This document shows, piece after piece, positions 36,168 to 47,748 of a stretch of DNA of 64,000 bases (positions within the stretch are counted from its first letter, which is position 1; every line of letters begins with the position of its first letter). The notes under the pieces were generated by a model. It was not told where the DNA came from and searched no databases. It worked only from the letters and a program-made list of their open reading frames with translations. The stretch covers positions 1 through 64,000 of the forward strand of contig JOSY01000069.1 in the NCBI GenBank assembly GCA_000746765.1, written 5' to 3'. This DNA comes from Marine Group I thaumarchaeote SCGC AAA799-D11 (GTDB lineage: Archaea > Thermoproteota > Nitrososphaeria > Nitrososphaerales > Nitrosopumilaceae). Both the position numbers and the translations under genes were made by a program.

Positions 36168-36518
36168 TTAATCATTTATGCTTGATACTACGTGTTCGAT
36201 ATTGAAGGGTTTTTGAACAACAGGCACGTTGAGTTTTTGTAGTTTTTCTTCAGTTTCAGTACTGGTATCAGCCGTAACTGCAATTATGCGTGCTTTGGGT
36301 TGAATTTCATGAATTTTCTTGATTGCATAAAATCCTGAGCCATTAGGCATGTTAAGATCAATTAGAGTAACATCAGGTTTTAATTTTTTATACAATTTAA
36401 CTACAGTAACACCATCAAATCCATTTCCTACAACATTGATTCCTTTTTCCTCAAGAAATTCAGAAAATAATCTAACAGTATCCTCATCATCATCAATAAT
36501 GATAACAGATTTGCTCAT
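36168..36518 (-). CDS. response regulator receiver domain protein (CheY-like)
   Basis: SVIIIDDDEDTVRLFSEFLE, DVTLIDLNMPNGSGFYAIKKI, VVQKPF. Confidence 0.93.
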   Translation of the reverse strand: MSKSVIIIDDDEDTVRLFSEFLEEKGINVVGNGFDGVTVVKLYKKLKPDVTLIDLNMPNGSGFYAIKKIHEIQPKARIIAVTADTSTETEEKLQKLNVPVVQKPFNIEHVVSSIND

Positions 36519-42422: not shown

Positions 42423-45074
42423 CTATCCAGAAGTACAACCACTAAATCCACATTCAATGCAGATACTACAACCTTCTACAAATACAAGGTTGTTCTTACA
42501 TGTTGGACATAGACGATCTTCTGCAACCTCTTCTTGTTGTAGCGGTTCAGATTTGATTTCTTCGTCATGAACTTTCAATGCAAGTGCTGCATTAACTTGT
42601 GATTTGATGTATGGATTTGTAATTTGTGTTGTAACATAATCTGTTACATGTTCACTTGGCATAACATCAAATGTTTTTTCTGCATTTTCACTTGTCATGT
42701 GAAGCACTTGTTTGTGTCTAGAGCCATCACGATATACTGTGATACCTTTGAGACCAATTTCGTGTGCTAGCAGATATGCAGATTTTACGTCTTCTGCTGT
42801 TACATCATATGGCATGTTGATTGTTTTTGCAATTGCATTTCCAATCCAGTCTTGCCATACACCTTGAGCCATCAAGTGATCAGCCCAGTGAATATCCATT
42901 GCAGTTACAAAGACATCTTGCATCCATTGAGGAATTTCATCAATTCCTTTCAATGAACCATAGTTGTCTGCAATCTTTGCAAGAATTTCATCGTTGTAAA
43001 GATTATTTTCTTTTAGGACTTGTTCTACAATTTTGTTTGTGTAGAAGAATCTTCCTACAGTAACTCTCTTTTCAAATACCAATGCAAATGCAGGTTCCAT
43101 TCCGTTTGAACAGTCTGCAATCATTGACAGTGTACCTGTTGGGGCCACTGTTGTTGTTAGGACATTTCTTACTCCATATTGTTTTATTTTTTCAATTAAT
43201 GCATCCCATTCATAGGAGTGAGATTCTTTTGGTTTTTCATAATATCCTGCAACAGGAATCTTTCCTTCAGGATATTCTGTCTTGGAACATAGTGGGAATT
43301 CGCCACGAGACTTTGCAAGGGCTACACTTTCTTCCATGGAATAGTATGTTAGGGTTTCAGATAATTTGGATTGTAGTTCATATCCCTCTTTGGAGTTATA
43401 TGGGATTCTTAGTTTGTACAAGAGATCTGCTACTCCCATTACACCTAATCCAATTCTTCGAGATTCTTTTGATGCTACGTTGATCTCTGGGACTGGATAG
43501 TGATTAACATCAATGATGTTATCAAGGAATCTTGTAGTCTTTCTGATTGTCTCTTCATATCTTTGCCAATCAAATTCATAGGTTCCATCGGCTTGTCTCT
43601 TTACGAGATTTACCAAATTGATAGAACCAAGATTACATGATTCGTATGGGTAAAGACTTTGTTCACCACATGGATTTGTTGCACGTAATGGTGCTTGTCT
43701 TGCTTTTGCAAATACATTGTATTTGTTAATTTGATCAAAGAAGATCAAACCAGGTTCTGCACTTTTCCATGCAGATAATGCAATCAAGTCAATTAGTTGA
43801 TGTGCGTTGATTTCTTTGACTGGTTTTTTATCACGAGGACTACGTAGAACGTAGTTACCGTCACTAGTGTTTACAAGTGCATGCCAAAAGTCTTCCCAAA
43901 CACCAACACTGACGTTAAAGTTTTCTAAAACACCAGGCTCGGTTTTGTTTGTGATGAATTTTTCAACATCTGGATGCCATGCTTCAATTATACCCATGTT
44001 TGCACCACGTCTCTTTCCTCCTTGTTTAACAACTTCAGTTACAGTGTTAATGATGTTCATGAAAGACACTGGACCTGATGCAACACCTGATGTTGATGCT
44101 ACAATGTCACCTTCTTCACGAAGATCAGAGTAGTTGATTCCAACTCCACCACCAGATTTGAAGATTAATGCTGCATCAGAAGTTGATTTCATAATTTCTT
44201 CCATGCCATCTTGCATTCCAAGTACAAAGCATGCAGAGAGTTGACCTAGTCTTCCACCTGCATTCATCATTGTTGGAGAGTTTGGCAAAAAGTCTTGTGA
44301 AACCATCAGATCAAAGTACTCAGTGATTTTGTCTGCATAGATATCAAGTTTCTTTGCTGCAAGTAGTGTCAAAAGTTCTTTGAAGCTTACTTTCATCTGA
44401 CCTTTGTTTGCAAGTGTTACATAGTGGTTGATGAGTGATCTGAAATGCCATTTATTGAAGAAATAGTCTCCGACTTTGAATTTGTAGTCAAAGGCATCTA
44501 GTTTTTCAAGATAGGACTTTGCTTCTTCTACATCTTGTTTTGAATTTCCAGATTTGTCAAATACTTGTGCATCATACATGAGATCACCTATTCCGACGAG
44601 TATTGCTACTCTCTCAAACATTTGAGTTGGAGATTCAATAATCTCATTCTTTCCATTTCTGAAAAGATATCTTGATGCCAAAACTCTAAGACAATTCAAG
44701 TCAAACTTTTTGGAAACTGGATCAAGGGCCTTTAGATTCAAGACCTTCATTTTCTCGTCTCTTAGCTTTCTTCTCTCATGACGATAAACGATGTATGCTT
44801 TTGCAATATCGCTATTACCACTGTCAATCAAAGTAGACTCTACAATATCTTGAATATCTTCAACTGTAGGAGTTCTCGAACTTGTAAATCCCTGTTCGAC
44901 TAATTTGTTAACAACATTATCTGCTAACTGATCGGCTAGACCACGGTCGGCTTTAGAGGTGGCAGCCAATGCCCTGAAAATGGCATTTGAAATTTTATCT
45001 TTATTGAAAGCCGTTACTGCGCCACTGCGCTTACGGATCTCATTGATAGTATTTTCTATTTGTGAATTATCCAT
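42423..45074 (-). CDS. nrdJ: adenosylcobalamin-dependent (class II) ribonucleoside-diphosphate reductase
   Basis: ATP-cone, LPNSPTMMNAGGRLGQLSACFVLGMQDGMEEI, ATNPCGEQSLYPYESCNLGSINL, TTVAPTGTLSMIADCSNGMEP, C-terminal CPTCKNNLVF...CSICIECGFSGCTSG; ATG at 45074 behind GGGGAG; ORF track starts at TTG 45104. Confidence 0.96.
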   Translation of the reverse strand: MDNSQIENTINEIRKRSGAVTAFNKDKISNAIFRALAATSKADRGLADQLADNVVNKLVEQGFTSSRTPTVEDIQDIVESTLIDSGNSDIAKAYIVYRHERRKLRDEKMKVLNLKALDPVSKKFDLNCLRVLASRYLFRNGKNEIIESPTQMFERVAILVGIGDLMYDAQVFDKSGNSKQDVEEAKSYLEKLDAFDYKFKVGDYFFNKWHFRSLINHYVTLANKGQMKVSFKELLTLLAAKKLDIYADKITEYFDLMVSQDFLPNSPTMMNAGGRLGQLSACFVLGMQDGMEEIMKSTSDAALIFKSGGGVGINYSDLREEGDIVASTSGVASGPVSFMNIINTVTEVVKQGGKRRGANMGIIEAWHPDVEKFITNKTEPGVLENFNVSVGVWEDFWHALVNTSDGNYVLRSPRDKKPVKEINAHQLIDLIALSAWKSAEPGLIFFDQINKYNVFAKARQAPLRATNPCGEQSLYPYESCNLGSINLVNLVKRQADGTYEFDWQRYEETIRKTTRFLDNIIDVNHYPVPEINVASKESRRIGLGVMGVADLLYKLRIPYNSKEGYELQSKLSETLTYYSMEESVALAKSRGEFPLCSKTEYPEGKIPVAGYYEKPKESHSYEWDALIEKIKQYGVRNVLTTTVAPTGTLSMIADCSNGMEPAFALVFEKRVTVGRFFYTNKIVEQVLKENNLYNDEILAKIADNYGSLKGIDEIPQWMQDVFVTAMDIHWADHLMAQGVWQDWIGNAIAKTINMPYDVTAEDVKSAYLLAHEIGLKGITVYRDGSRHKQVLHMTSENAEKTFDVMPSEHVTDYVTTQITNPYIKSQVNAALALKVHDEEIKSEPLQQEEVAEDRLCPTCKNNLVFVEGCSICIECGFSGCTSG

Positions 45075-45208
45075 TATAATCTCCCCGCAAGAGGTTATGA
45101 TCAATATGGGTATAAATGGTTTGTCAGTTTTTGTCTTGAACTTCGGTTCAAAAAATTTGACAACGCTACTATGAAGTTCATAATGGCATAACTTTCACAA
45201 TATACGAT

Positions 45209-45253
45209 GATCGCAAAGATCTGAAACAGATCAAAAAGTTTCTAAAAATGATC
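45209..45253. promoter_or_regulatory. GATC cluster upstream of nrdJ (45209, 45218, 45229, 45250)
   Basis: Four GATC in 45 bp, start-to-start spacings 9, 11, 21 bp; another at 45099. Function not established. Confidence 0.35.
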
Positions 45254-45278
45254 GTAACTAGTTTTTCAATTATGAATT

Positions 45279-47447
45279 TCAGACAACGTATGGAGACTTA
45301 CACTTTGGACACTTGTCTTCAAATGGTTCGTCTTTGAAACCACACTCACCACAGATTGCAATCTCCTGAACTGGTTTGAATGAGGTTGTAAGTTCGGATG
45401 TCTTCTCAATTGCCTTTTTGATTTCTGCAGGCTTTGCATCTTTGCCAATTTTTAGTGTGACAAACAAACCACCATTTAGCAACTTTGCAAGTTTGTTGCA
45501 TTCAGAGATAGGCTCACTCTTGGCAGTATAATCGGAGATTTCAGAAGCATCAATAGTAATTCCTTCAGAGTAAGAGTCTCCTTCCATGGAGTTTAGTGAG
45601 GAGTTTTTGCCGTATTTCTCACCATCAAGTGTGGCAAATCGGGTTGCACTCTCAGTCTCAGTCATACAAATAGCCACAGTATCACCTAATTCTTTGCCTT
45701 TTTTGGCTCCAACATCGACTGCAGTCTCAATTACCTTGTGAAGTATTTCACGACCTTCCTTGTTATCCTGGAATCCAAGGATGTTAAAGACTGCCTCCTT
45801 GAGGCCTACTAGATTAACTACAAGTGAAACATTGCTTTTTTGCATATATTGGGTATTTTTGGCCAAAATTGGGTTCAAGCCACGTCTGGTCAAATCTGAA
45901 ATGTCTTTCTTTCTTAACGCCATTGAAGACAAAGCTGGTTTCATGAGCAATGCCAATCTTGCTCTAAAGTAAGTTTCATCTTTGTTTGATTCAAATGCCA
46001 ATCTTGGAAGATTGATTGAAACTGACTCAAGCATAATTGAAAGTGGGCCAGAGTTCTTAGTGGAGCCATTGGTAACACCATGACTTGATGTTTGTCCTTT
46101 AGCAAACATTACTTTTCCACCAAGTGAAATTATTTCAGATGCAGTTGCTGAAACATCTGTAATCTTTCCCTTTTCATTATCTATGATTAAACCGATCTTT
46201 GGAATTGGAGTGAGCTTTGTGTAGTTTTTGTATGCATTGATAATTGAATTAATTATTTTTGTATCAGATCCTAATTGCAATCTAATTGAAACGTTAGTGC
46301 TTGATTTGTTGTATTTAGAAGTTGTAGATGCAGTTGCAAATGCTGCAGTTAATTTTTGTTCTAGTTCTGGAAGTGACTTTGAGTGTTTTGAGAACAGTGA
46401 AACTAATCCATCAAGTACAATTTCTTGTGAAGCTTCTTTTGAAAGAAGTGAAATTACAACAGACAATGCACTTGTGATTTCATCAAGTTGTTTTGATGCA
46501 GGAATTCTTGAAACATCAAGATATTTTCCGCCAAGATCAATTCCATCTTCGATTAATTCTTTAACATTAACAAATATTGTATCAGGTATCATTGACCAGA
46601 TTCCAGGATTTGCAATGTGCAGATCACCAGAAAGATGAGAGTCAGCTACATCTTTTGGTAAGATGTTTGTAAGAAGGTGTTCAGCAAAAACTCTTTGACC
46701 TGTTTTAAACAAGAGACCTTCAGCACCATTATCGACATTGTCCAAGTTAGTAATCATCTCTTGAACATCAAACACTGGCAAGCCTAGGCGTGCAAGCTTG
46801 TTGCGGTATTCCTCATGACCGTGCTCAAGCAGCACAGAGTTTACCATTTCTCGAATAAGTGAGCCTGTAAGATAGGTGGTTTGATACTTGTAAATTCTAT
46901 TTTCAACTTCTTCAGTAATTTTTTGTGCTAGTTCAAGTGGTAGGCTGCCCTCACGTACCAAAGACTGAATAATTTTATGGGAATTAAATTCCTCAATTGA
47001 TTCGTGTGATGTTCTAACATACATCTTTCCGCTTTCAATAATTGATCTTTCTTCAATTTGTCTGGCTAAGCTTAAAACTAATTTTCCGAGATTTGTAATT
47101 GTGTAACGTCTTTCAGATTTGTTTAATGCAACAAGTGATTGTCTAAGTAATTTTCTCAAGTGGTATGCAAATTTTCCACTCTCTTTTTTTGATTTGAATC
47201 CAGCTAGGGATTTTAATTCTGAATAAGTCAGAGGGCCTTTTGAATTTAGAATTCTCAAGATATCAATTCTGTTAGGACTTGCCATTACAGAGAAGATCAT
47301 TCTGACACGTTTTGATGTAGATTGTAAAATTCCACCGCGTTTTTGTGAATCCGAATCATCATCTAAGTCTGCATCTAGATCATCATCCATATCGGCATCT
47401 AGATCACCTTCTAGATCCATTTCTAATTCTTCATCACTCATTTTCAT
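45279..47447 (-). CDS. wHTH + ATP-cone + NrdD-like domain + zinc ribbon, no glycyl-radical motif; probable RNR regulator
   Basis: wHTH VMASPNRIDILRILNSKGPLTYSELKSL...FAYHLRKLLRQSLVAL; ATP-cone MYVRTSHESIEEFNSHKIIQSLVREGSLPLELAQKITEEVENRI; NrdD-like TETESATRFATLDGEKYG; C-term CGECGFKDEPFEDKCPKCKSPYVV*. Confidence 0.8.
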   Translation of the reverse strand: MKMSDEELEMDLEGDLDADMDDDLDADLDDDSDSQKRGGILQSTSKRVRMIFSVMASPNRIDILRILNSKGPLTYSELKSLAGFKSKKESGKFAYHLRKLLRQSLVALNKSERRYTITNLGKLVLSLARQIEERSIIESGKMYVRTSHESIEEFNSHKIIQSLVREGSLPLELAQKITEEVENRIYKYQTTYLTGSLIREMVNSVLLEHGHEEYRNKLARLGLPVFDVQEMITNLDNVDNGAEGLLFKTGQRVFAEHLLTNILPKDVADSHLSGDLHIANPGIWSMIPDTIFVNVKELIEDGIDLGGKYLDVSRIPASKQLDEITSALSVVISLLSKEASQEIVLDGLVSLFSKHSKSLPELEQKLTAAFATASTTSKYNKSSTNVSIRLQLGSDTKIINSIINAYKNYTKLTPIPKIGLIIDNEKGKITDVSATASEIISLGGKVMFAKGQTSSHGVTNGSTKNSGPLSIMLESVSINLPRLAFESNKDETYFRARLALLMKPALSSMALRKKDISDLTRRGLNPILAKNTQYMQKSNVSLVVNLVGLKEAVFNILGFQDNKEGREILHKVIETAVDVGAKKGKELGDTVAICMTETESATRFATLDGEKYGKNSSLNSMEGDSYSEGITIDASEISDYTAKSEPISECNKLAKLLNGGLFVTLKIGKDAKPAEIKKAIEKTSELTTSFKPVQEIAICGECGFKDEPFEDKCPKCKSPYVV

Positions 47448-47498
47448 GTATCTTTCTAAAAAAACGCACTAATTAAGACTTATGACAGTATGATTTTG

Positions 47499-47588
47499 GA
47501 TCGAAATTGATCATTTTTCTAAATGCATTGAAAGGTTTTAGATCGATTTTTTAAAAATTATAAAAAAAAAGATCAAATATGATAGATC
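47499..47588. promoter_or_regulatory. GATC cluster upstream of the wHTH/NrdD-like gene (47499, 47509, 47541, 47571, 47585)
   Basis: Five GATC in 90 bp, spacings 10, 32, 30, 14 bp; last site overlaps the stop codon of the upstream small gene. Function not established. Confidence 0.35.
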
Positions 47589-47748
47589 ATTTTTCTTGAA
47601 CATCTAATGAAAACTCGGATGTAGAGAGTTTCTGTCCACATGACGGACATTTTCCACTGTAAGGATTCATTACATCTTTTAGAGATTTTAACATCTTCAT
47701 GTTTGTGATCTTTTCACCACATTTTCCACATGTTACTTCTACTGACAT
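47587..47748 (-). CDS. small zinc-ribbon protein (53 aa)
   Basis: Manual translation MSVEVTCGKCGEKITNMKMLKSLKDVMNPYSGKCPSCGQKLSTSEFSLDVQEK; two CxxC; below ORF-track cutoff. Confidence 0.75.
   Translation of the reverse strand: MSVEVTCGKCGEKITNMKMLKSLKDVMNPYSGKCPSCGQKLSTSEFSLDVQEK

Follow-up and report, generated by a model that had tools for sequence, protein, structure and literature searches.

A winged-helix relative of class III ribonucleotide reductase as a candidate regulator of ribonucleotide reductase genes in Nitrososphaeria

How is the supply of deoxyribonucleoside triphosphates (dNTPs) coordinated with replication in archaea that lack NrdR? This question is raised by one gene of the Marine Group I thaumarchaeote SCGC AAA799-D11, located in a stretch of 64,000 nucleotides (contig JOSY01000069.1 of assembly GCA_000746765.1, positions 1 to 64,000), the whole of which is referred to here as the window. 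The gene lies beside nrdJ, which encodes a class II ribonucleotide reductase (RNR), and its product of 722 amino acids (aa) joins a winged helix and an ATP-cone to a body resembling the class III enzyme NrdD. With a probability of about two in three, this protein is a transcription regulator of RNR that is itself derived from an RNR, an archaeal analogue of NrdR with predicted DNA-binding and nucleotide-sensing functions. No description of the protein was found in the open-licence literature searched.

Architecture and descent of the 722-aa protein

A preliminary description, made from the sequence alone, had placed an open reading frame (ORF) encoding 722 aa at 45279-47447. These limits are exact; the strand, which had not been stated, is the minus strand, and the plus strand of the same region is full of stops. 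The features of the gene are the following:

45279..47447, minus strand: protein of 722 aa with winged helix-turn-helix, ATP-cone, inactive NrdD body and zinc site, proposed RNR regulator
47316..47447, minus strand: N-terminal tail, acidic and rich in Asp (residues 1-44), little conserved (mean identity of 13% among Nitrososphaeria; predicted local distance difference test score, pLDDT, <50)
47058..47315, minus strand: winged helix-turn-helix, residues 45-130 (HTH_20 and DUF7347 above the Pfam cut-off)
46773..47024, minus strand: ATP-cone, residues 142-225, with VRTS replacing the usual Lys-Arg lid (PF03477, 1.5e-8)
45378..46727, minus strand: NrdD-like barrel, residues 241-690, with the catalytic Cys, HxHD and NxN lost and NLPR kept (profile, alignment and fold)
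45300..45353, minus strand: CxxC...CxxC zinc site, residues 699-716, the protein ending 6 residues later without a glycyl-radical loop

All Pfam matches of the protein were above their cut-offs, namely NRDD (6.6e-26), ATP-cone (1.5e-8; 35.5 bits, cut-off 25.8), DUF7347 (2.9e-10) and HTH_20 (8.2e-8), in agreement with the winged helix and ATP-cone proposed previously. The winged helix had been designated ArsR-like. The HTH_20 match and the size of the DNA-binding domain are those of ArsR/SmtB-type regulators, but the ArsR family model NF033788 gave 23.5 bits against a cut-off of 55, and here the domain is fused to RNR domains. The class III signatures were also recovered, as SATRFATLDGEKYG was found in the protein and aligned with the class III motif of T4 NrdD. 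The C-terminus reads CGECGFKDEPFEDKCPKCKSPYVV-stop, as had been noted, whereas catalytic NrdDs run on as WSRVTGYYQ..GWN..K. In the NCBIfam NrdD equivalog model the protein reached 84 bits, below the cut-off of 326, and by that standard it is therefore NrdD-like and not NrdD. A frameshift, a truncation or an assembly artefact behind this architecture was ruled out, the ORF being intact in about 190 genomes.

The family profile matched archaeal catalytic NrdDs with an E-value of 1.3e-87 across 629 columns (profile-profile comparison), and solved NrdD structures over nearly the whole body (9d3x, 5e-31; 8p23; 4coi; 1h78). An AlphaFold model built from 43 sequences had a mean pLDDT of 75, its weaker parts being the acidic tail, ATP-cone and linker; its 36 best matches in the PDB were all class III RNRs, with a target-normalised TM-score of approximately 0.5-0.67. 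Long relatives from outside the Nitrososphaeria retain decayed traces of the radical loop, such as FSRVSAKHLP and YSRTASGYLP, and the ancestor was therefore a glycyl-radical enzyme. In an LG tree of 28 catalytic NrdDs and 39 regulator-type proteins, both sets were separated with a support of 1.0. The protein is homologous to NrdD from the ATP-cone through the barrel to the zinc site and has the same predicted fold, but differs from it in the added winged helix, in its separate clade and in the absence of the catalytic Cys, the radical Gly loop, HxHD/NxN and an activase partner.

The 722-aa protein descends from NrdD without being an NrdD enzyme. The conversion of a former anaerobic RNR, as suggested in the preliminary description, was supported with regard to descent and to a loss of catalysis that extends to the whole family, but it is not particular to the lineage of the window. 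Of the refuting outcomes listed in that description, none of those open to computation was observed. Since proteins with winged helix, ATP-cone and dead NrdD body are widespread in Thermoproteota, sometimes beside a catalytic nrdD, the putative regulator is an old NrdD paralogue and not an enzyme of recent conversion.

Loss of the catalytic residues

Residues were compared by aligning 41 regulator-type proteins from three subgroups with four catalytic NrdDs encoded beside such genes. In the window protein the equivalent of T4 C79 is T and that of T4 C290 is V, and both cysteines are lost in 21/21 Nitrososphaeria. HxHD and NxN are substrate motifs of class III RNR (PMC11226230); they read HIAN and L.N in the window protein, and are lost family-wide. 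The loop WSRVTGYYQ, which carries the glycyl radical, is absent at the C-terminus of the window protein and of 21/21 Nitrososphaeria, while the motif is present in 24/24 further catalytic NrdDs from the same phylum. The catalytic residues are gone in all three regulator-type subgroups. On the other hand, all 41 regulator-type proteins keep the asparagine of NLPR, and the four-Cys zinc site is kept in 20/21 Nitrososphaeria, its cysteines being kept in the long members.

An active NrdD was ruled out by the lost catalytic Cys and substrate motifs. The retained fold, NLPR and zinc site would still fit a reductase whose glycyl radical is supplied in trans by another, small protein, in the way that YfiD serves pyruvate formate-lyase, but both catalytic Cys, HxHD and NxN are missing too. 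In addition, of the two NrdG activase models only that for NrdG2 was run (TIGR02495, not TIGR02491); five Nitrososphaeria gave at most 54 bits with it, below its cut-off of 131, and two NrdD-bearing genomes passed the cut-off. The NRDD profile found neither a second protein carrying the radical loop nor a second NRDD-type gene in the genome of the window, which is 87% complete; a weak second match on its contig C77 was the small subunit of DNA primase. Because both Cys and the radical loop were lost together, complementation in trans by a second protein that bears the radical is considered extremely improbable.

Distribution, gene neighbourhood and domain conservation

The gene was found in 187/201 sampled Nitrososphaeria genomes. 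Phylum-wide, some match was obtained in 112/151 genomes, many of them long winged-helix versions in genomes that also carry a catalytic NrdD, although weak matches within this count can be mere ATP-cones. The best 80 matches of a profile scan of public contigs belonged to Nitrososphaeria. The bacterial NrdR (TIGR00244) reached its cut-off in only 7/151 genomes; these all come from a single different family, and no sampled member of the Nitrososphaeria is among them.

The adjacent class II RNR gene of the preliminary description lies directly downstream in the same orientation, and its product shows a Ribonuc_red_lgC match of 1.1e-145 and an ATP-cone of its own:

42423..45074, minus strand: nrdJ, class II RNR including an ATP-cone (conserved first ATG at 45074; ORF open to 45104)

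This synteny is general. An RNR gene comes directly after it, in the same orientation, in 50/50 Nitrososphaeria loci examined and in 75/75 named public loci whose contig reaches far enough, both sets overlapping in species and being ranked by similarity, hence not independent samples. The partner varies, and may be an NrdJ with ATP-cone, an NrdJ with a TSCPD domain and no ATP-cone, or an RNR of the Ribonuc_red_2_N type. The gene association has therefore outlived the replacement of the RNR enzyme, a pattern that would be expected if the gene regulates RNR expression. Outside the Nitrososphaeria, copies stand beside nrdJ (L059) or a catalytic nrdD (L054, L063, L064 and L065), and others stand alone.

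Among 20 diverse Nitrososphaeria, the mean identity to the window protein fell from 89% in the winged helix and 78% in the ATP-cone to 38-49% in the body and 39% at the zinc end. As the winged helix and the ATP-cone are the most conserved parts, DNA binding and the cone appear to be the working parts of the protein.

These data also bear on the idea of an accessory NrdJ subunit, in which the dead body would pair with the enzyme and lend it an ATP-cone or alter its activity or specificity, the winged helix serving for protein contacts or tethering. The fixed gene order, the many partner RNRs without an ATP-cone and the retained RNR-type body are in its favour. However, partners with their own ATP-cone, including nrdJ of the window, are linked just as tightly; the partner has been swapped for distant subfamilies, which would break an evolved interface; the winged helix and not the body is the most conserved part; and elsewhere the gene adjoins a class III nrdD. 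Such a subunit is therefore regarded as unlikely.

Several other features of these loci were recorded. The partner RNR of locus L052 (2343-5792) holds an intein with a LAGLIDADG endonuclease. The gene pair is also present in public records labelled as Phycisphaerales bacterium or bacterium (L187 and L148), which are probably mis-binned contigs. Directly upstream of the putative regulator gene in the window, on the same strand, a 53-aa zinc-ribbon ORF (47587-47748) was observed, an adjacency kept in Nitrosopumilaceae. No cobalamin riboswitch or other known RNA from Rfam was detected in the region. A 35-bp repeat, GATCATTTTGTAAAATAATTACGATCATCTTGATC, occurs in about 10 copies on contigs C7, C10, C11, C15, C16, C47, C52, C57 and C76 of genome G000, several of them near contig ends.

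Candidate operator and proposed regulatory role

If the protein controls RNR expression, sites for it may lie in the promoters on both sides of its gene. The regions concerned are:

45075..45278, no strand assigned: intergenic region with the nrdJ promoter, GATC at 45099, 45209, 45218, 45229 and 45250
45170..45182, no strand assigned: palindrome TATGAA-N-TTCATA upstream of the TATA-like box of nrdJ, largely conserved in Nitrosopumilaceae (alignment)
47448..47588, no strand assigned: promoter of the putative regulator gene, GATC at 47499, 47509, 47541, 47571 and 47585

Whereas GATC is slightly rarer than expected in the whole window (205 vs 238), these two flanking regions are the GATC-richest of its 21 intergenic regions. 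Across 34 Nitrosopumilaceae loci, GATC occurs 132 times upstream of the putative regulator gene, where about 18-19 would be expected, and 127 times in the stretch from this gene to nrdJ, against about 28; the loci are related and the counts not independent, but a reduced set of ten loci still gave 40 vs 6.7 and 41 vs 9.4, respectively. No other tetramer is as strongly enriched as GATC in either flanking region of this family, and the GATC spacings cluster near 10, 20-21 and 32 bp, with a phase coherence of 0.50-0.66 at 10.5 bp. The phased GATC clusters are proposed as a candidate operator of the putative regulator.

A search of genome G044 for three close GATC yielded one further strong conserved intergenic array, in the divergent rfcS / gins-mcm promoter, and a few other single intergenic matches without an evident theme. 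Across related loci this promoter contains 182 GATC against 41 expected:

L076 2219-2394 (G000:C6 ~36218-36393) and L099-L126, Nitrosopumilaceae: GATC array of the rfcS / gins-mcm divergent promoter, GGATCGATCAATT...GATCAATTGATCC

A replication regulon is thus possible. The wider proposal that the dead RNR is a dNTP-reading master switch of an S-phase-like regulon, acting via phased GATC arrays on its own gene, nrdJ and rfcS / gins-mcm, is speculative and rather unlikely.

Several observations weigh against a role as regulator. In Nitrososphaeraceae the winged helix is almost identical, yet the promoters of this gene and of nrdJ have no GATC clusters, and therefore another protein may bind GATC; a k-mer comparison of the Nitrososphaeraceae promoters gave no convincing shared motif. 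The body of about 700 aa exceeds the need of a simple repressor, and a protein-protein role would fit as well. Linkage to RNR alone cannot tell transcription control from an accessory subunit, and several of the short relatives (535-650 aa; L066-L073) of other Thermoproteota, which have mostly lost the zinc site too, stand beside NAC and HflX genes and not beside RNR. Finally, the nearly invariant T146-S147 replace K50-R51 of NrdR.

It is possible, although on balance not favoured, that a different GATC-binding factor controls nrdJ, the putative regulator gene and the replication genes, the target of the 722-aa protein being narrower or different; in that case, too, the protein could regulate RNR. 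Besides the situation in Nitrososphaeraceae, genome G046 points in this direction, as it keeps the clusters at rfcS / gins-mcm and has few at the two RNR-side promoters. Against it, operators can drift, and the promoters adjoining the gene are the richest sites in Nitrosopumilaceae, fitting an autoregulated regulator.

With respect to the ATP-cone, V48, K50, R51, E56 and K62 of NrdR bind nucleotide, K50 and R51 contacting it from the lid, and a mutation of K50 weakened both nucleotide and DNA binding (PMC9110341). V144, E152 and K158 of the window protein match V48, E56 and K62 in the alignment. The adjacent R145 is invariant, and the Lys-Arg pair is likewise absent from the four archaeal NrdDs compared. 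With T-S in place of the phosphate-binding Lys-Arg of NrdR and typical RNR cones, ATP/dATP sensing is not simply to be assumed; nucleotide sensing by the putative regulator is plausible.

The proposed regulator resembles NrdR in its ATP-cone, in having RNR genes of various kinds as neighbours, and in the autoregulation and dNTP feedback proposed here. It is not a member of NrdR because the DNA-binding domain (winged helix of the HTH_20 type instead of a zinc ribbon), the model match (no TIGR00244 match in G000) and the box all fail, no NrdR-box-like site being present in the window when a simplified box was searched with one mismatch allowed. It also differs in its whole inactive RNR body and in the replaced Lys-Arg pair. 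BirA and PutA are other regulators derived from enzymes, in which a metabolic protein is joined to a DNA-binding domain; they keep catalysis, whereas here it was lost and the parent was an RNR.

An old NrdD duplicate would have gained a winged helix before its ATP-cone and lost catalysis. The regulator would most likely bind, as a dimer or higher oligomer, to the promoter of the downstream RNR gene and to its own, with repression rather than activation as the expected effect. Oligomerisation, and with it DNA binding, would shift with the nucleotide state, which the ATP-cone would sense, possibly together with the effector site at the dimer interface of the RNR body. In this way, dNTP supply would feed back on RNR expression, a role in Nitrososphaeria equivalent to that of NrdR in bacteria.

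With its candidate sites and fixed gene pair, the regulator idea can be tested directly. If true, it would represent a second, independent invention of an ATP-cone transcription regulator, and a regulator of reductase genes made from a reductase without catalysis, among the most abundant microbial groups of the ocean. The dead reductase with its DNA-binding domain is probably the missing switch that sets the amount of working RNR in ammonia-oxidising archaea.
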